A stretch of DNA of 64,000 bases from Alphaproteobacteria bacterium (GTDB lineage: Bacteria; Pseudomonadota; Alphaproteobacteria; Rhizobiales; GCA-2746425), in assembly GCA_024743215.1 (NCBI GenBank), contig JANSWZ010000006.1, positions 62,001-126,000 on the forward strand. The letters are read 5' to 3'. The position numbers and the translations under genes are program-made. The notes under the pieces were generated by a model, which had not been told where the DNA came from, did not search any database, and worked only from the letters and a program-made list of their open reading frames with translations. Of the stretch, positions 53,289-62,483 are shown piece after piece (the stretch's first letter is position 1; every line of letters starts with the position of its first letter).

Positions 53289-53687
53289 TCATCCCCAATT
53301 GTTACTCATGGCGCGCAACGCATCTGCCCGGCTGATCTGGCCCACAAGCCGACCATTTTCCATAACGGGAAACCGTCTGAAGGAACTGTCCAGAAAAACA
53401 CTGGTGGCAGCCACAATATTCATGCCGGAATCAAGCGTCTGGACATCTGTCGACATATAGGCGCTCACAGGCTTTCCCCAGTCCCTGTAGTAACTCGCGG
53501 CCAGCGCCGCTGCCAGACAGTCTTTCTTTGACAAAACCCCCACAAGCTTGCCACTGGCATCGACAACCGGCGCGCCAGAAATGTGCTTTTCCAGCAGAAT
53601 ATTCATGGCATGGTTGATCTCCATATCTGGAGACAGGGTGATCAGATCACGAGACATGTAATCGGCAACTGTTGAGGCAGAGCTCAT
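53289..53687 (-). CDS. CBS-domain protein at the end of the nqr operon
   Basis: 132 aa from the ATG at 53687, preceded by GGAGGA with 6-nt spacing. Two CBS motifs (VADYMSRDLITLSPDMEINHAMNIL..., and YMSTDVQTLDSGMNIVAATSVF... RRFPVMENGRLVGQISR). CBS pairs bind adenine nucleotides. It overlaps nqrM by 4 nt (ATGA), so it is translated with the NQR genes and may sense the cell's energy charge; inference. Confidence 0.9.
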   Translation of the reverse strand: MSSASTVADYMSRDLITLSPDMEINHAMNILLEKHISGAPVVDASGKLVGVLSKKDCLAAALAASYYRDWGKPVSAYMSTDVQTLDSGMNIVAATSVFLDSSFRRFPVMENGRLVGQISRADALRAMSNNWG

Positions 53688-53857
53688 TGCGGCTCCTCCA
53701 ATAGGCGTTTTGCGCGGCAAGCGCCGCAATCAATGTCTTTCATGCAGGCCAGACCACCACAGGACCCCTTGATCGGTTTGCGACCCGCCATCACGCCAAG
53801 AGCAAGACCACCCATCGACACCAGCAGAATGGCAAAGGCAAAAACAAGCGTTCCCAT
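53684..53857 (-). CDS. nqrM: NQR maturation protein NqrM
   Basis: 57 aa from the ATG at 53857 after GGAGATTGTT. N-terminal membrane helix (LVFAFAILLVSMGGLALGVMAG) and four cysteines C33, C38, C44, C47 in SCGGLACMKDIDCGAC, the NqrM/DUF539 pattern. It supplies iron to the NqrD/E cluster. Slightly shorter than in Vibrio. Starts 10 nt after apbE, overlaps the CBS gene. Confidence 0.92.
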   Translation of the reverse strand: MGTLVFAFAILLVSMGGLALGVMAGRKPIKGSCGGLACMKDIDCGACRAKRLLEEPQ

Positions 53858-53867
53858 AACAATCTCC

Positions 53868-54881
53868 TCAGATCTCAATGTGGGTATCAAACCCACCGGT
53901 CATCACTTCCAAAGGTGCTTCTGATCCATCCGTTACAAACAGGGCCGAAATTCCAAGGCGCTCAGCCAGGTCAATACCCGCCCTGGCCCCATGGGCGCAC
54001 AGGGCTGTGGCAAATGCATCTGCCTCCATGCCGGATACGGCCAGAACAGAAACAGAAGCCAGCGTCATATGCGCTGGCCGCCCGGACTGTGGATTGACGA
54101 TATGGCTGATACTGACCGGCGCACGAACGCCATTTACCGCATGGCCAGATGTGGCAAGAGCCCGAATTCCAGGCTTCACGACGCGCTGCACCCCCGCACC
54201 ATTTGACAGCGGATCCGCTATTCCGATCTTCCACGCACGTCCATTTGGGTGCATCCCCAGCGCCCGCACTTCACCACCAATCTCTATCAGGGCGTTTTCA
54301 ACACCTGCTTGAGACAGGCCAGCCACAATTCGGTCCAGCGCATAGCCTTTGGCAATTCCGCACAAATCCAGCGTCAGTCCCGGCACCCGTTTCCGAAGGG
54401 CACCTGGCGCAACAACAATATCATCATACCGTCCCACAGCACCCTGAATCGGCCCAAAACCGAACCGGGCCACCAAAGGGCCGACGGTCGGGTCAAACGC
54501 CCCTTGTGAAATCCTCGCAATGCGCAGCGCCTCTGTTACAACTGCACAACTCGGTCCGGACATGGGCAGCCAGTCATTGGTCTTTGCCGCATTGAAGCGA
54601 GAAAGCTCAGATGTCGAATCGTAAGGCGACATGCTGTGTGTGACGTCATCAACAATCGCATCCAACACGGATTTGGCCACACCCGCCATTTGAGCGTCAG
54701 CCGTGACCAGACGCCAGAAGCTGCCAAAGGCCCATCCTTTGGAAACATGGCCCTTGGAAACCTGAGCATTGGAATTGTGGTTTCCGGCCCATGCAGGACC
54801 AGCCAGATCAATGCCAGAGCCAGCCATGCCAAGGCCAGAGGCGGCCAGTCCAAGCACCATGTCACGTCGTGAAATCTGCAT
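53868..54881 (-). CDS. apbE: FMN transferase ApbE for NQR flavinylation
   Basis: 337 aa. Twin-arginine-like start (MQISRRDMVLGLAASG) for export, then ApbE/FAD:protein FMN transferase body: LTLDLCGIAKGYALDRIV, NALIEIGGEVRALG and ISHIVNPQSGRPA are conserved. It attaches FMN to threonine or serine residues of NqrC and, in ordinary complexes, NqrB. Lies between nqrF and nqrM. Confidence 0.93.
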   Translation of the reverse strand: MQISRRDMVLGLAASGLGMAGSGIDLAGPAWAGNHNSNAQVSKGHVSKGWAFGSFWRLVTADAQMAGVAKSVLDAIVDDVTHSMSPYDSTSELSRFNAAKTNDWLPMSGPSCAVVTEALRIARISQGAFDPTVGPLVARFGFGPIQGAVGRYDDIVVAPGALRKRVPGLTLDLCGIAKGYALDRIVAGLSQAGVENALIEIGGEVRALGMHPNGRAWKIGIADPLSNGAGVQRVVKPGIRALATSGHAVNGVRAPVSISHIVNPQSGRPAHMTLASVSVLAVSGMEADAFATALCAHGARAGIDLAERLGISALFVTDGSEAPLEVMTGGFDTHIEI

Positions 54882-54884
54882 CGC

Positions 54885-56105
54885 CTAAACTCCAAAATCG
54901 TCGTTGAAGATATGATCCCGGTCCACACCAAGCTCATCCAGCATGGCCATGACCGCCCGGATCATGAGCGGCGGTCCGCACAAATAATATTCGCAGTCTT
55001 CGGGGGTCGGGTGGTTTTGCAGATGCTGTTTGAACACAACAGAATGCACAAATCCCTTGCTCCCGGTCCAATTGTCTGACGGGGCAGGATCGGACAGGGC
55101 CACAGTCCAGTTGAAATTGGCATGCTTTGCCGCAAGGGCATCCAACTCCTGCCTGTAAAACAGCTCGGCTTCGTTTCTGGCACCGTACCAGAAACTCATG
55201 GCCCGGCCGGTGCCCACACGCTCAAGCTGCTCGTGAATGATGGCACGCAAGGGCGCCATACCAACTCCGCCGCCAATGAACACCATCTCACGCTCAGTAT
55301 CCTGCGCCCGGAATGTGCCAAACGGACCGGATACAGATACTTCTGCGCCCTCTGACAGGCCAAACAGCCAGGAGGATACAATTCCAGGGGGGGCATCACG
55401 GGCTGAGGGCGGCGGCAATGCCAGCCGTACATTCAGCACAAGCCGCCCTGCAGCCAAATCTTCCGGTCGATCAGAAACCGAATAGGCGCGCGTGACGTCA
55501 CCCTCACTATCAACGCGCAAATCCCGCATGGATTTCCATGCCTCTTCATGCGCATCGGGCACTTTCAAATCGGCATAAGCCAGCGTAAACGGGGGAGCGG
55601 TAATCTGCACAAAAGCACCGGCAACCAACTCCATCTCGGTGCCTTCCGGCAATTGCAGCACAACTTCGCGGATCAGCGGCGTGAGAGAACGCGAGGAGAC
55701 CACCTGGCAGGAGAATGTCTCCACAGACATGATATCCGCTGGCACCTGTACCCTCATGTCGCCACGCACCATGACCTGACAGGCCAGATGCATCCCGTCA
55801 TGCAATTCGGCTTTCGTAAACAGTCCGGCTTCAATGGGAGTGGTATCTGGCGCGCCTTCCTCAACTTTGATCCGGCACAGGCCACACGTCCCGGCCCCGG
55901 CGCAAGCGGAGGGCACCAGAATTTCATTTTCAAGCAGACTGGACAGCAACTTCTGGCCGGTTTTGGTCTGAAGCTCGGTTTGCTCATTCACCGTCAGAAC
56001 GGCAGCACGGACCGGCATCAATGCGGACCGAGCCAAAACAACAATGATGGCCAGCACCAATACGATGACGGTTAGGAGCAAGCTGCCAAACAGGATTTCA
56101 TTCAT
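54885..56105 (-). CDS. nqrF: NQR subunit F, NADH-oxidising
   Basis: 406 aa, normal length. One N-terminal membrane helix ([17 protein letters not shown]), ferredoxin domain with [2Fe-2S] ligands C68, C74, C77 ([10 protein letters not shown]) and C109, then FAD domain (RAYSVSDRP) and NADH site ([27 protein letters not shown]). Accepts electrons from NADH in the cytosol. Start overlaps the nqrE stop (ATGA). Confidence 0.96.
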
Positions 56106-56701
56106 AGCCCCGCCCCTGCAAAAGCGGAAAATCCGAGCGAAATAAGACCGGTGATAAGAAAGGCGTTGCCCAGTCCCCGAAGACCTGCTGGCATATCACT
56201 ATATTTCAACCGCTCACGAATGGCAGCAAATGTGACAATGGCCAAGGCCCAGCCCGCACCGCTGCCAAAACCATAAATGATCGAGTCTGTGAAACTGTAC
56301 TGCCGCTCAACCATGAACAGGCTACCACCCAGAATGGCGCAGTTCACGGTGAGCAATGGCAGGAAAATGCCAAGGGCGCGGTAGAGAGTTGGCACAAACC
56401 GATCCAGCGACATTTCCAGAATTTGCACCATCGCCGCTATCAGACCGATAAAGGCAACAAGTTTGAGAAAAGTCAGATCAATATCTGGCAAACCAATGAA
56501 GGCCCATGCCCCTTCAATCAGCAACCCGTTGTAAATCAGATTGTTGACTGGGACCGTAATCGTTTGGACCACAATGACCGCAATGCCCAACCCGAAGGCT
56601 GTTTCGATACGCTCTGACACGGCCAGAAACGTACAGATGCCCAGGAAAAAGGACAGCGCCAGATTTTCCTGAAATATCGACGCAATCAGAAGCTCGGTCA
56701 T
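56102..56701 (-). CDS. nqrE: NQR subunit E
   Basis: 199 aa with six membrane helices. The Cys residues of the NqrD/E intramembrane iron-sulfur site are intact: C23 ([11 protein letters not shown]) and C121 ([10 protein letters not shown]). Channel-forming with NqrD. Overlaps nqrD by 3 nt. Confidence 0.96.
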
Positions 56702-57351
56702 GACCGCACGCTCCGCGTTCTCAGTTCAAACTTTACGGCTTCCTTTTGCTGTGTCCAAAAGGTCCGTATCAGCCAGATCAAAAGGCCAATAATGAAAAAC
56801 GCGCTTGGGGCCAGTTGCATCAGACCAAGTGGCTCAAACCAGCCCCCTTCTGAAACCGGCGTTAACACAACGTAGTTGAGAAGCGTTCCCGCACCCAATA
56901 ATTCCCGGATTGAGCCAACAATGATGAGGATCAGACTGTAACCCAGCCCGTTTCCCAGACCATCCAGTATGGAGGGCACAACAGGATTGCGCATGGCAAA
57001 AGCTTCCGCACGGCCCAGCACAAGACAATTCGTCACAATCAATCCGACAAAAATGGAAAGCTGGCGGCTGATCTGGAACGCATAGGCCTGCAAAATCTCA
57101 TCAATCACAATGACCAGCGACGCGATGATCGTGATCTGCACAATCAGGCGAATGACCGATGGAATGTGATTCCGGATCAGGCTGATCAGGCCCGAAGCCA
57201 GACACAAGACAACCGTCAAGGCCAACGACATCGTCAAAGCAGTGGACAGCGAGGTCGTAACGGCCAGTGCAGAACAGATACCCAGAATCTGCAACGTAAT
57301 TGGATTGTTGTTAATGAGCGGCGTTGAGATGTGTTTCATCAAGGCGGCCAT
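56698..57351 (-). CDS. nqrD: NQR subunit D
   Basis: 217 aa, six helices. C26 ([11 protein letters not shown]) and C109 ([15 protein letters not shown]) are the other two cluster cysteines. Paralogue of nqrE with inverted topology. One nt after nqrC. Confidence 0.96.
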
Positions 57352-57352
57352 A

Positions 57353-58153
57353 TCAAAGTCCTTCCTGCTGCAGACGGTTCAGAAAGGGACCAAATCCATG
57401 ATCACCCAGCCAATATCGCAGCATATTCGCCACTCCATTTCCGGTGCGCGATGCGCCGGAAATTCCATCAACCTCGAAAGGCCCGGCGGCTTGTCCCCGT
57501 ACAACTGAAATAACAATTTCGCCGCTGCCATCAGCAATCTGCTTACCCTGCCATTGGGCCTGCCAATCAGCATCTTCAATGCGGGCACCAAGGCCCGCGG
57601 TTTCGCCCTGTTCGATGATCGTCAGAGCCGCAACCGTATTCAAATCAGCTTCAAGTGCCAGCATTGCCCGCAATGTGGACTGGTAACCCACACCGCTGAC
57701 TGGCAGCACAACAAGCAGAAGCTCGCCATCACTTTCCAGAAGATAAACCGGCGCATAAAGCGCACGTCTTTGAAGTCCCGCAACATCAGCCTCAGTTGGA
57801 ATGGCAACACTTTGCTCCGGGTCATTAAGAGCAGCCTGTGCGTCGTAGCTATCCGGATCTATGTCGGAAACAAACGTCCCACTTGCCAGATCAACAAGGC
57901 GCGTTTCCAACGTATCAACACCGGCTTCCTGCATGATGGAGCGCATGCTTGGCAAAGTATCCAGCATGGCTTCCATCCGCGCCTGACGCTCCGCCTCCAG
58001 ATGCGCTTCCTGCATCGGTCGCAGCATCACAGAGGCCGTCGAAATCACGATGGCACACACAAAAGCAACCAACACCGCGACGCCGTATGCCTTGACGCGA
58101 TCATCATTGTCTCGCGCCAGAAATCCGCGCCATCCTTCAATGGGGTTAAGCAA
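57353..58153 (-). CDS. nqrC: NQR subunit C, with Ser at the FMN site
   Basis: 266 aa from a TTG start at 58153, which is preceded by a perfect AGGAGG with 7-nt spacing; the ATG at 58213 would overlap nqrB by 68 nt with no such site. One N-terminal helix, then a periplasmic FMN domain. The flavin motif reads [10 protein letters not shown]; the acceptor position, normally Thr (SGAT), is Ser (codon 57449-57451, TCG). The conserved GETAGLG block is present (usually GETPGLG). Overlaps nqrB by 8 nt. Confidence 0.93.
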
Positions 58154-58967
58154 GGCTTTGCCTCCTGCGTCTTGAACTGCGCTCCGACCTGCTTTTGGCT
58201 TTCGCAAGGACAATCAGATGGTCAATCAAAGGTGCAAACACGCTGGCCGTCAGGGAGCCAAAAACAAGGCTTGCAGATGAAATGGCAGTACTCTCCGGGC
58301 TGAAAATGGAAATCAGCAGGCCTGCCAGAAGGCCATAGAGCCAGCGTCCCGAATTTGTGGATGCCGCTGAAACTGGGTCGCCGGTCAGGAACACCAGCCC
58401 AAACAGTGTCGCAATACCAAGCGAAAGCACATCCACTTCCAGATTTGAGGGCAAGGCCAGCCCAATAATCATCACAAACGCGCCAAGGATGACCCGCCAC
58501 GATACCAGGCCAGAAATCAACAAAAGCAAAGCTCCCGGCACTGTGGCCAGAGCCACGTTCTGGGTCATTGGTTCCAGTTGAACCTGAGGAAACGACAACA
58601 GCAGCAGAGACAGGCAAATGGCTGCCGGACTTAAAAACCCGAATCCCCGCCCTCCAAAGACATGTTCACCAATGACGCATCCAAGAGACAAGGTCAGAGC
58701 CAATTGCCACAATGGCAACGCAGGTGGCACCAGAACGGCAACGATCAAGGCGGTCGACATGCCATGAAAATAAAACGTCCTTTTGCGCAGAATGGCAAAA
58801 ATCAGATCCCAGAAAATGGCGGTCAGCAGCGCGACCGCCAGCAATCGAGCCTGCGCGTCGCCCCGTTCAAAAACCACGATCACAATTGGTAGCAAAAGAG
58901 CTGCAATCTGGAGGACGCTGATCCCGCCAACGCTCATCCGCGGGATAAATCCGGGGCGCAGGATCAT
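58146..58967 (-). CDS. nqrB: NQR subunit B, short form lacking the FMN-attachment segment
   Basis: 273 aa; ordinary NqrB has roughly 400. The conserved C-terminal part is complete (LTGDPVSAASTNSGRWLYGLLAG, FAPLIDHLIVLAK), and FGGRGFGFLSPAA matches the usual FGG-GxxxxNPA element. But the segment normally following, which carries the covalent FMN-Thr (SGAT-type motif) and the IPGSIGETS-type loop, is missing: LSFPQVQLEPMTQNVALATVPGALLLLI joins directly. The cytosolic N-terminal extension is absent also. Start overlaps nqrA stop (ATGA). Confidence 0.9.
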   Translation of the reverse strand: MILRPGFIPRMSVGGISVLQIAALLLPIVIVVFERGDAQARLLAVALLTAIFWDLIFAILRKRTFYFHGMSTALIVAVLVPPALPLWQLALTLSLGCVIGEHVFGGRGFGFLSPAAICLSLLLLSFPQVQLEPMTQNVALATVPGALLLLISGLVSWRVILGAFVMIIGLALPSNLEVDVLSLGIATLFGLVFLTGDPVSAASTNSGRWLYGLLAGLLISIFSPESTAISSASLVFGSLTASVFAPLIDHLIVLAKAKSRSERSSRRRRQSLA

Positions 58968-60247
58968 ACAATGTCCCCCGCCAGATCATCCAGGACGTGC
59001 CTGAGAAGCGCGCCATAATCGGCACCGCTGGTACACAATTCAGTCAGGGCCGCGACATCTTCTTCGACGAGGGCAAGACACCCCAGCCGTTCGGCAGCTT
59101 CGCTATCACCAACGCTCAATGCGCGCATCAGCGGAACAGGCAAAACATCAACGGCCAGAGCCTGTTCCAAAGCGCCTGTGGGTACAATAACACCCTGTGC
59201 GGCGGATGGTCCTGATAACCAGCGCCAGATGCCTTTGTCTGATGGCCTGTCCATGATTGTAATCTGTTGATGATAACGGCCGATATAGGCAGCATCTCTG
59301 CCCGTCAGCGCATCACCAGACAGAATTCGCGTGGTGGAACCACCGCTTTGGGATGCAAACTCTTCTCTGCAGATATCCCGTATACCACCGCCAAGGCAGG
59401 TTCTGACAAGCTTCGGTTTGATTGCACGCGGACCAGCAATGGAAATCAAACGATCCGCCAGATATTGCCCGGTTTGAAACAGATGGCCGATAGCAGCAAC
59501 ATCCTGATATCCGATTGACCAGACCTGATGGTCAAGACTGGCCGGATGCAATCGATCAATGTGTGTTCCAGACAGTCCCGCCGCCCGGGTTCCACTGAAA
59601 AATGCGCCTTTCACACGGCCTGAGAAGGTACAAAGCGTATCTTCCGGCGCCTGACAGACATAGACCGGCCCGTCAGTCAGGCGGGTTAGCAACTCGACGC
59701 CCTGCTGAAATTCAGTTTTCCGGCGTTCCAGTACAACCCAGGGAGCTGGCGCCCGAGGGGATATTTGTGTCGCGTTGACAAAGATGGCAGAAGGCTTCGC
59801 ATCCGGCGCTGGAATGCCGCCAAATGGACGCGTTTGAAAGGCTGGCCACAAGCCGCGCTTCAACAATGTCTGGCGCACGCCCTCATTGCTGGTTTCGTCA
59901 ATCGAAGCGGTTTTGGAAAGAACATCCGCAACCTCATCCGACTCGCTCTTCTCAGCTTCTATGACGAAAGCAGACAATGTGCGGCGCGGCCCATAATCAA
60001 TCGAAGCAACACGCCCGGACAAGGGCGTCGCAAAGGCAATATCCGGATATTTACGGTCCGTGAAAACAATCTGTCCGGCCGTGACCCTGTCCCCAAGAGC
60101 GACGGTCAAGGCTGGACGCAGGCCCGGGCAGTCCGCACCCAACAAAGCTGCAGTGCTGACACAGCATTCTTCGTGCACAAGATTTTCCACAGGTGCACCC
60201 TCATTGGAGAACTGCAGCCCACGTTTGATTTTGGTGTGACCCATCAT
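58964..60247 (-). CDS. nqrA: NQR subunit A
   Basis: 427 aa from the ATG at 60247, which has AAGGA 7 nt upstream; an open frame extends to 60310 but is not family-like. TKIKRGLQFSNEGAP start (NqrA: IKIKKGLDLPIxGxP), LTVALGDRVTAGQIVFTDRKYPDIAFATPLSGRVASI with the barrel-sandwich hybrid fold, and GTHIDRLHPA... are typical. Cytosolic subunit close to the quinone site. First gene of the operon. Confidence 0.95.
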   Translation of the reverse strand: MMGHTKIKRGLQFSNEGAPVENLVHEECCVSTAALLGADCPGLRPALTVALGDRVTAGQIVFTDRKYPDIAFATPLSGRVASIDYGPRRTLSAFVIEAEKSESDEVADVLSKTASIDETSNEGVRQTLLKRGLWPAFQTRPFGGIPAPDAKPSAIFVNATQISPRAPAPWVVLERRKTEFQQGVELLTRLTDGPVYVCQAPEDTLCTFSGRVKGAFFSGTRAAGLSGTHIDRLHPASLDHQVWSIGYQDVAAIGHLFQTGQYLADRLISIAGPRAIKPKLVRTCLGGGIRDICREEFASQSGGSTTRILSGDALTGRDAAYIGRYHQQITIMDRPSDKGIWRWLSGPSAAQGVIVPTGALEQALAVDVLPVPLMRALSVGDSEAAERLGCLALVEEDVAALTELCTSGADYGALLRHVLDDLAGDIV

Positions 60248-60408
60248 CAGCGATCCTTCACCGGGGAAACAGGGAACTTTGAAACGTAATCTCTGATTCC
60301 AGATCATCAATCAGGAAGGGATGGATCTCTTTGATCTCCATCAATGATTGCATATCCGTGTGTGATATTTTTCAGGGCAGATCTTCAAAAAACAATGGAG
60401 CGTAGTTC
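60248..60408. promoter_or_regulatory. Divergent control region nqr / cytochrome c
   Basis: 161 bp between the two start codons; both promoters should lie here. An imperfect dyad GATGGATC-N5-GATCTCCATC at 60320-60342 is a candidate operator. GGAG (8 nt before 60409) is the cytochrome's ribosome site. No -10/-35 pair is clear enough to name. Confidence 0.5.
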
Positions 60409-61533
60409 ATGAATAGGTTGTTGAAGGCCGCTTGTACGGTCACCGGTTCGGTTTTCCTGATGTCACTCATTGTACCCCTGAACGCGCTTTTGCCCATGAC
60501 ATCTGCCAATGCTCAGGACGCGGGCCGCTCTCCGATCGCGGACATTGTCGAGGCCTGGCGCGCGTCACCGCATGCCGACAGGTCATCTGAAGCGTTCACC
60601 CATTGGAATGAAGACGGCGAGATTCCCGGATCCTGTGCCACCTGTCACTCCAGCATTGGTGCAGAGGATTATCTGAACGGCCCCATGAGTACGCCAGGTG
60701 TCATCGACCACCCTGTACCTCTTGGCACCACAGTTGGATGTGTTGTCTGTCATCAAAACAGTGCCGAAACTCTGGCATCTGTTCCGTTTCCCTCTGGCGT
60801 TGCCGTCGATTCGCTGGGCGATGGCGCGGTTTGCGCCGTGTGCCATCAGGGCCGGGCATCCAGTGATCGGGTCAACACCGCGACACTTGATATCGAGGAC
60901 GATGCGGTTTCAGCCGACCTTGGCTTCATCAACATCCATTACGCTGCAGCTGCAGCAAGCCTTATGGGCGGCGAAGCGCGGGGTGGCTACCAATATGAGG
61001 GCAAGACCTACAAGGGCAAGTTTACCCATGTTCCCAATCTTGCAACCTGCACAGACTGCCACAATCCGCACACACTGGAAGTGGCTCAGGAAAGCTGCTC
61101 CAGCTGCCATCAGAACATCTCGCAATTCAGCGATATCAGAATGTCGCCGATCGACTTTGATGGAGATGGAGACACCACAGAAGGCATCGCAAATCCTATT
61201 GCCGCCCTGCATGAACGCCTTGATGTAGCGATCCGAGCATACGCAGCGGAAGTGGCTGGAACGGCCATTGTCTATTATTCTGGGTCATTCCCATACTTTT
61301 TCACAGACAGTGACGGCGATGGTTCGGCATCGGGTGATGAAGCCATATACCCAAACCGTTACCAGACCTGGACACCACGTCTCTTGAGAGCTGCCTACAA
61401 TTATCAGGCCATCGCCAAGGACAAGGCGATCTATACCCACAACCCACATTATGCCCTGCAATTGCTCTATGACAGCCTAGAAAACCTGTCAGAGCAGGTG
61501 GACGTAGATATGTCGGGTCTGGTGCGGCCCTGA
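60409..61533 (+). CDS. Secreted pentaheme c-type cytochrome with EF-hand-like loop
   Basis: 374 aa. Signal peptide ending at ANA~35. Five CXXCH haem-binding motifs: CATCH (76-80), CVVCH (111-115), CAVCH (142-146), CTDCH (214-218), CSSCH (230-234). After them come two Asp-rich stretches, DFDGDGDTTEG (249-259) and DSDGDGSASGDE (300-311); the second is a perfect 12-residue EF-hand loop, suggesting calcium binding. No membrane anchor or cell-surface motif. Related to polyhaem cytochromes of unclear function. Divergent from the NQR operon, so co-regulation is likely; whether it takes electrons from NQR/quinol or elsewhere is open. Confidence 0.85.
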   Translation: MNRLLKAACTVTGSVFLMSLIVPLNALLPMTSANAQDAGRSPIADIVEAWRASPHADRSSEAFTHWNEDGEIPGSCATCHSSIGAEDYLNGPMSTPGVIDHPVPLGTTVGCVVCHQNSAETLASVPFPSGVAVDSLGDGAVCAVCHQGRASSDRVNTATLDIEDDAVSADLGFINIHYAAAAASLMGGEARGGYQYEGKTYKGKFTHVPNLATCTDCHNPHTLEVAQESCSSCHQNISQFSDIRMSPIDFDGDGDTTEGIANPIAALHERLDVAIRAYAAEVAGTAIVYYSGSFPYFFTDSDGDGSASGDEAIYPNRYQTWTPRLLRAAYNYQAIAKDKAIYTHNPHYALQLLYDSLENLSEQVDVDMSGLVRP

Positions 61534-61940: not shown

Positions 61941-62483
61941 ATGCTCTCATTCACGAAATACCGATCTGCCTGCCTGCTTGCCCTGGCATCAATTGCCCTT
62001 TGCAACCCGGCAATGGCCGAAGCACCAGTATTGCAGACACCTGCACCCGTTATTTATCTGGCCGACAATCTCGACGAGGTGGATGCGCTGGGTTGGTGCA
62101 TCGATACCTTGGGACGGGGGTTCTCAGAGCAGCTTCAGGCCCATTCCTGCAAACCACAAGGTGGTGATGTGCAGTTTTCCTTTGATGGTGAAACCGGCCA
62201 GATCAAATCCGCCGAATTCGCTGGCAAATGCATGACACTGAGTGAACCGGAAAACGAAGCTGTACCCTTTGGACTAAAGGATTGTCTGGAAAACGATGCC
62301 AGCCAGCAATTCGCCTACGCCACTGAGACAATGCTATTCACCCTGACAAGCGACGAAACCCTGTGTGTCTCGGTTGCTGACACCAGTCGCAGCGCGGGGC
62401 CATTCATGTCACGCGATCTGACATTGACACCATGCCAGAGCACAGACGCAATATTCATGCAGTGGGTCATCAAGAGCAGTTGA
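61941..62483 (+). CDS. Secreted ricin-type beta-trefoil-like protein
   Basis: 180 aa. Signal peptide to ~26 (ACLLALASIALCNPAMA). Three similar segments, each with a Cys pair and Q-x-F/W-like ends (GWCIDTLGRGF ... SCKPQGGDVQFSF; KCMTLSEP ... DCLENDASQQFAY; LCVSVADTS ... PCQSTDAIFMQW) fit the three-fold beta-trefoil of ricin-B lectins. Likely carbohydrate- or surface-binding. No neighbour tells its role. Confidence 0.78.
   Translation: MLSFTKYRSACLLALASIALCNPAMAEAPVLQTPAPVIYLADNLDEVDALGWCIDTLGRGFSEQLQAHSCKPQGGDVQFSFDGETGQIKSAEFAGKCMTLSEPENEAVPFGLKDCLENDASQQFAYATETMLFTLTSDETLCVSVADTSRSAGPFMSRDLTLTPCQSTDAIFMQWVIKSS

Follow-up and report, generated by a model that had tools for sequence, protein, structure and literature searches.

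Introduction

Several members of the Nqr/Rnf family are proposed to deliver electrons to acceptors other than the quinone pool. In Methanosarcina acetivorans the multiheme cytochrome MmcA takes electrons from Rnf, and the flavin of RnfG has been proposed as the donor (PMC4023990, PMC11024163). RnfD of this organism carries SGTF in place of SGAT (PMC4023990). One-way export of electrons from NAD(P)H has been proposed for two-subunit Nqr/Rnf-like complexes (PMC8238504, PMC11334425). The route of the ion is disputed: Hau et al. (2023) place the Na+ path in NqrB (PMC10643135), whereas Kumar et al. (2025) place it in the RnfA/E pair, which corresponds to NqrE/D (PMC11889175).

The window analysed here, a stretch of 64,000 nucleotides from an alphaproteobacterium of the order Rhizobiales, contains an nqr operon whose nqrB gene is short. 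The original prediction held that all six NQR subunits are present, that NqrB lacks its cytosolic N-terminal extension and its FMN attachment segment, and that the complex either uses another path from NqrC to quinone or represents a new subclass. The literature searched (NqrC with multiheme cytochromes, short or FMN-less NqrB, Nqr with pentaheme cytochromes) holds no description of a system that joins a short NqrB to a multiheme cytochrome.

Results

Organization of the operon

The gene order nqrABCDEF-apbE-nqrM is complete, with nqrB between nqrA and nqrC, and is followed by a gene for a CBS-pair protein (Table 1). Each Nqr subunit matches its own Pfam or NCBIfam model, which confirms that all six are encoded in one operon, and the NqrB reading frame has the predicted length. 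Apart from the short nqrB, the 5.09-Mb genome has no PF03116 gene, which rules out an additional NqrB of canonical type.

Table 1. Coordinates of the nqr operon and adjoining features in the window.
Feature	Coordinates	Strand	Remarks
CBS-pair protein	53289..53729	-	Conserved cluster member
nqrM maturation factor	53684..53896 (ORF)	-	True start probably near 53860
apbE, FMN transferase	53868..54881	-	
nqrF	54885..56105	-	2Fe-2S Cys 68, 74, 77, 109; FAD and NADH motifs retained
nqrE	56102..56701	-	Cluster ligands C23, C121 retained
nqrD	56698..57351	-	Cluster ligands C26, C109; R68, N108, E116 retained
nqrC, periplasmic flavin subunit	57353..58213	-	Predicted FMN site DGISGAS, Ser255, codon 57449-57451
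Short nqrB	58146..58967	-	273 aa, ATG start, ten predicted TM helices, FMN-Thr loop absent
NqrB residues 129-138, short linker in place of Vibrio NqrB 219-276	58554..58583	-	
nqrA	58964..60247	-	Likely ATG at 60247; longest ORF extends to TTG at 60310
Pentaheme c-type cytochrome	60409..61533	+	5 CxxCH, N-terminal signal-like segment; divergent to nqrA; proposed electron acceptor

The CBS-pair gene directly follows nqrM in 21 of 22 short-NqrB operons; the contig of the sole exception is truncated. Of 74 canonical loci, scanned on plus-strand ORFs only, 3 have such a gene. Its product is perhaps regulatory. Beside the cytochrome gene, an ORF (61941-62483) encodes a small protein that looks secreted and has a ricin-type beta-trefoil lectin domain; a homologue was seen only in a near relative (L099).

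All of the 12 genomes tested encode complex I. The short-NqrB complex therefore need not act as their main NADH dehydrogenase, and the idea that NQR is the only NADH dehydrogenase was rejected on the same count.

Missing and retained parts of NqrB

The short NqrB aligns with Vibrio cholerae NqrB in two pieces, residues 43-128 with 133-218 and residues 139-263 with 277-411, and the PF03116 profile likewise matches in two pieces. The 58 Vibrio residues between them (219-276, which include the FMN loop with T236 and a loop in the membrane interior with E273) are exchanged for about ten, and Vibrio residues 1 to about 45 have no counterpart. Both deletions had been correctly predicted. A relocated FMN motif was also considered and rejected: none occurs in the short NqrBs, and close relatives have no [ST]GA[ST]. 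The lone match, in L024, falls in DPVTSGAT, which is the conserved DPVSA helix.

An AlphaFold2 model built with 38 homologues has a mean pLDDT of 91 and ten helices; 257 of its residues can be superposed on Vibrio NqrB (Z 26.5, rmsd 2.9 A). Because of this model and its superposition, the membrane core of NqrB is judged to be whole; what is modelled as gone is mainly loops and N-terminal helices. The shortened loops include the connections between helices 1-2 and 7-8.

The roles of individual Vibrio residues are known (PMC10643135, PMC9325719, PMC4014512), and their fate was followed in 22 aligned NqrBs of the clade described below. The FMN threonine T236 is found in none of the 22, nor in sequences from two more loci. 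E157 and F159 are likewise 0/22, and the quinone glycines survive in one (G140) and three (G141) sequences. Among the acids, D52 is 0/22 and the loop that carries E273 is missing; these two are lost almost throughout. The quinone-binding residues (N-terminal helices, G140/G141, N156 and F159), all of which lie in the N-terminal half, are thus lost. The expectation that the C-terminal quinone and membrane part would be intact therefore holds for the membrane helices, all ten of which remain, but not for the quinone site. Three riboflavin ligands persist (T162 in 19/22, G198 and D346 in 22/22), which suggests that NqrB may still hold riboflavin; N200 (7/22) and N203 (9/22) vary. At T162, D346, N200 and N203 the NqrB of the window has T, D, G and S. 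This partial retention would allow a shortened path from NqrC through riboflavin to quinone.

Cofactor sites in the other subunits

The remaining redox sites are conserved. The FMN motif of NqrC (SGA[S/T] or TGAT), the four cluster cysteines of NqrD/E and the four ferredoxin cysteines of NqrF are retained in 22 of 22 operons, and the RxYS motif of NqrF in 21 of 22. The flavin-bearing residue of NqrC is predicted to be Ser (SGAS) in the window, in two congeners and in the subclade of L024, L118 and L119; in the others it is Thr.

Of the charged and Asn positions of NqrD with a conservation of 90% or more among canonical enzymes, all but one Lys position are kept; a single sequence has His for Arg. 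Those kept include the counterparts, assigned by offset from a conserved cysteine, of RnfE R67, N107 and E115, residues that have been probed by mutation in Rnf (PMC11889175). In NqrE most conserved charged and Asn positions are kept, with some variation at 30, 120, 132 and 163.

Distribution, phylogeny and constraint

The original prediction called for relatives to be searched for the same gap, and 23 orthologous operons, from Rhizobiales and from Rhodobacterales, share it. Within Rhizobiales they include three more genomes of the same genus and members of other families; the Rhodobacterales that carry it include Boseongicola and Yoonia. Among 329 genomes surveyed in the phylum, full-length matches to the short NqrB came from Alphaproteobacteria only; the rest of the listed matches were split and lay in frames of about 320-445 aa. 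In a midpoint-rooted tree of concatenated NqrD, NqrE and NqrF, 21 short-NqrB operons form one clade with a support of 1.0, and 56 canonical operons, including alphaproteobacterial ones, fall outside it. The identical gap in 23 operons of one clade and two orders supports the assignment of these operons to a new subclass, as had been suggested.

Among three congeners, dN/dS is 0.22-0.30 for nqrA and nqrB and 0.06-0.15 for nqrC, nqrE, nqrF and the cytochrome gene. The value for nqrB indicates that the gene is maintained under purifying selection. Compared with canonical NQR, the pattern of constraint is reversed, with NqrB free and NqrC constrained. At an NqrE identity of 0.65-0.70, NqrB has a mean identity of 0.35 among clade pairs and 0.54 among canonical pairs, and NqrC one of 0.50 and 0.36, respectively. 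The inversion is seen in all five bins of NqrE identity, and is what would be expected if the working electron exit had shifted from NqrB to NqrC.

Linkage to a multiheme cytochrome

A homologue of the pentaheme cytochrome is encoded near nqr at 17 of the 21 fetched short-NqrB loci, a count that excludes the window. ORFs with at least three CxxCH motifs occur at 18 of these 21 loci versus 0 of 74 canonical loci. Two later loci, found blind by NqrB or NqrC search only, both have the pentaheme gene, which thus lies within about 6 kb of 19 of the 23 short-NqrB operons and is mostly divergent from nqrA. When the fusion described below is included, linkage to a cytochrome is found in 20/23 operons versus 0/55 canonical loci with a full upstream flank (Fisher 9e-16) or 0/13 alphaproteobacterial canonical loci (Fisher 2e-7). 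Of the 397 genomes examined in the order, a short NqrB occurs in 16, the pentaheme cytochrome in 15 and both in 13 (Fisher 7e-20, uncorrected for shared ancestry). All these Fisher values overstate independence, because linked genes share ancestry.

One genome (G358) has no pentaheme gene; its NqrC instead carries a tetraheme extension at the C-terminus (FMN_bind plus Cytochrom_c3_2, E=5e-18; ORF L120:8337-9707, minus strand). No other such fusion was found: in the family of G358, no other member matched across the cytochrome part. At the same locus, nqrD to apbE lie on the strand opposite nqrABC.

In one subclade, the three operons L024, L118 and L119 have no multiheme gene beside them, and their genomes contain no member of the pentaheme family; in two of these genomes a pattern search found no closely spaced CxxCH pair. 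The reverse also occurs, as G104 and G161 have the pentaheme gene with no NQR beside it. Orphan members of the family were seen at L143:8653-9813 and L144:8168-9523, where they adjoin oxidoreductase-like genes with no nqr within about 8 kb.

Five CxxCH motifs are invariant in the family, as are several other histidines. A model of the cytochrome of moderate confidence (pLDDT 77) gave weak fold matches only, the best to OcwA (E 0.035), and a profile search by sequence against solved structures yielded only weak, partial matches around the heme motifs. The linkage and the fusion, as features of the gene sequences, are strong hints of a partnership between the complex and the cytochrome.

Discussion

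A proposed route to the periplasm

The gene set, the residues lost and kept, the conserved cytochrome linkage, the fusion and the inverted constraint are observed; they make it probable that the encoded complex is an NQR variant working in one direction, which would take electrons from NADH in the cytoplasm and give them to a multiheme cytochrome c in the periplasm. Those electrons would enter the FAD and 2Fe-2S cluster of NqrF, pass to the 2Fe-2S cluster between NqrD and NqrE, and from there reach the covalent FMN of NqrC. NqrC would then reduce the pentaheme cytochrome encoded next door or, in one genome, its own fused tetraheme domain, and the electrons would not return through NqrB to quinone. 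The stripped NqrB would probably serve as a membrane scaffold and docking partner. From the same evidence we infer the direction of flow, the transfer from NqrC to the cytochrome and the final acceptor.

The charged residues of NqrD/E are nearly all retained; Na+ pumping through this pair is considered possible, and as a further step of the scheme its chances are about even. A more specific reading is tentative, and rather doubtful as a whole: a NADH:multiheme-cytochrome-c oxidoreductase derived from a full NQR, in which NqrB has neither flavin nor ion path, NqrD/E alone pump Na+, and electrons exit at NqrC.

The other path from NqrC to quinone that was originally suggested is not the best reading. 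One form of it, which we consider unlikely, is that the FMN of NqrC docks above the riboflavin of the stripped NqrB and that riboflavin passes electrons to quinone without an NqrB FMN; the cytochrome would then be a separate branch, or the partner of something else. The pocket residues T162, G198, A205 and D346 are mostly kept and the ten helices remain, and three operons have no cytochrome. In addition, for two-subunit Nqr/Rnf-like complexes without the NqrB Thr, an NqrC-type flavin has been modelled near a non-covalent flavin site (PMC11334425). However, N200 and N203 vary, and the quinone site has lost G140/G141, N156, F159 and its N-terminal helices. NqrB is, along with NqrA, the least constrained subunit, and the multiheme linkage and the NqrC fusion would be left unexplained. 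Transfer to a periplasmic cytochrome c is preferred because of the lost quinone-site residues, the pentaheme linkage and the fusion.

Reverse or accessory use, in which the cytochrome would feed NqrC and NAD+ would be reduced (or redox balanced) at the cost of an ion gradient, is improbable. An identical parts list would suit either direction, Rnf is reversible (PMC12174285), and complex I, present in every genome tested, offers another route for NADH oxidation; but moving electrons from the periplasmic side to NAD+ runs against the redox gradient as well as the membrane potential, as is established in bioenergetics, and the cluster has no conserved donor enzyme. Decay, that is, a degenerate nqrB in an unused complex or a gap made by an assembly or sequencing deletion, is very improbable: nqrA and nqrB do have the highest dN/dS in the operon, but 23 operons share the identical gap with open frames, which rejects an assembly deletion or frameshift, dN/dS is still 0.22-0.30, the other subunits are highly conserved, and the NqrB fold is confidently modelled with 10 helices.

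If the route from NADH to the cytochrome is correct, bacteria have a direct link between cytoplasmic NADH and periplasmic multiheme cytochromes that bypasses the quinone pool. The short-NqrB complex would also be a natural test of the dispute over the Na+ path, since D52, E157 and E273 of NqrB are gone and the charges of NqrD are nearly all kept. If the complex still pumps Na+, the pump is not NqrB.

Comparison with known systems

The short-NqrB complex shares with canonical Na+-NQR (Vibrio) the six subunits, ApbE and NqrM, the ligands of NqrF, NqrD/E and NqrC, and the NqrB fold (Z about 26). It is without the FMN-Thr of NqrB, the N-terminal quinone-site helices, G140/G141, D52, E157 and E273 of the canonical enzyme, and it alone has a linked pentaheme cytochrome or an NqrC-cytochrome fusion.

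Like the two-subunit Nqr/Rnf-like complexes, it has an NqrB/RnfD-like subunit without the flavinylated Thr. Those complexes consist only of an NqrC-like protein and a fusion of an NqrB-like protein with PF00175, whereas here NqrA, NqrD and NqrE are present and PF00175 lies in a separate NqrF.

Rnf-MmcA of M. acetivorans likewise pairs all the parts of an Rnf/NQR-type complex with a multiheme cytochrome whose gene lies in the same cluster, a pairing known here from the genes. It is archaeal and ferredoxin-driven and has the heptaheme MmcA, whereas the short-NqrB complex is bacterial, with an NADH-oxidising NqrF and a pentaheme cytochrome. The ferredoxin-oxidising RnfB and RnfC are not in the short-NqrB operon, and NqrF and NqrA take their place. 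By analogy, Rnf-MmcA is in our best reading the closest functional parallel, and the short-NqrB complex would be its NQR counterpart.
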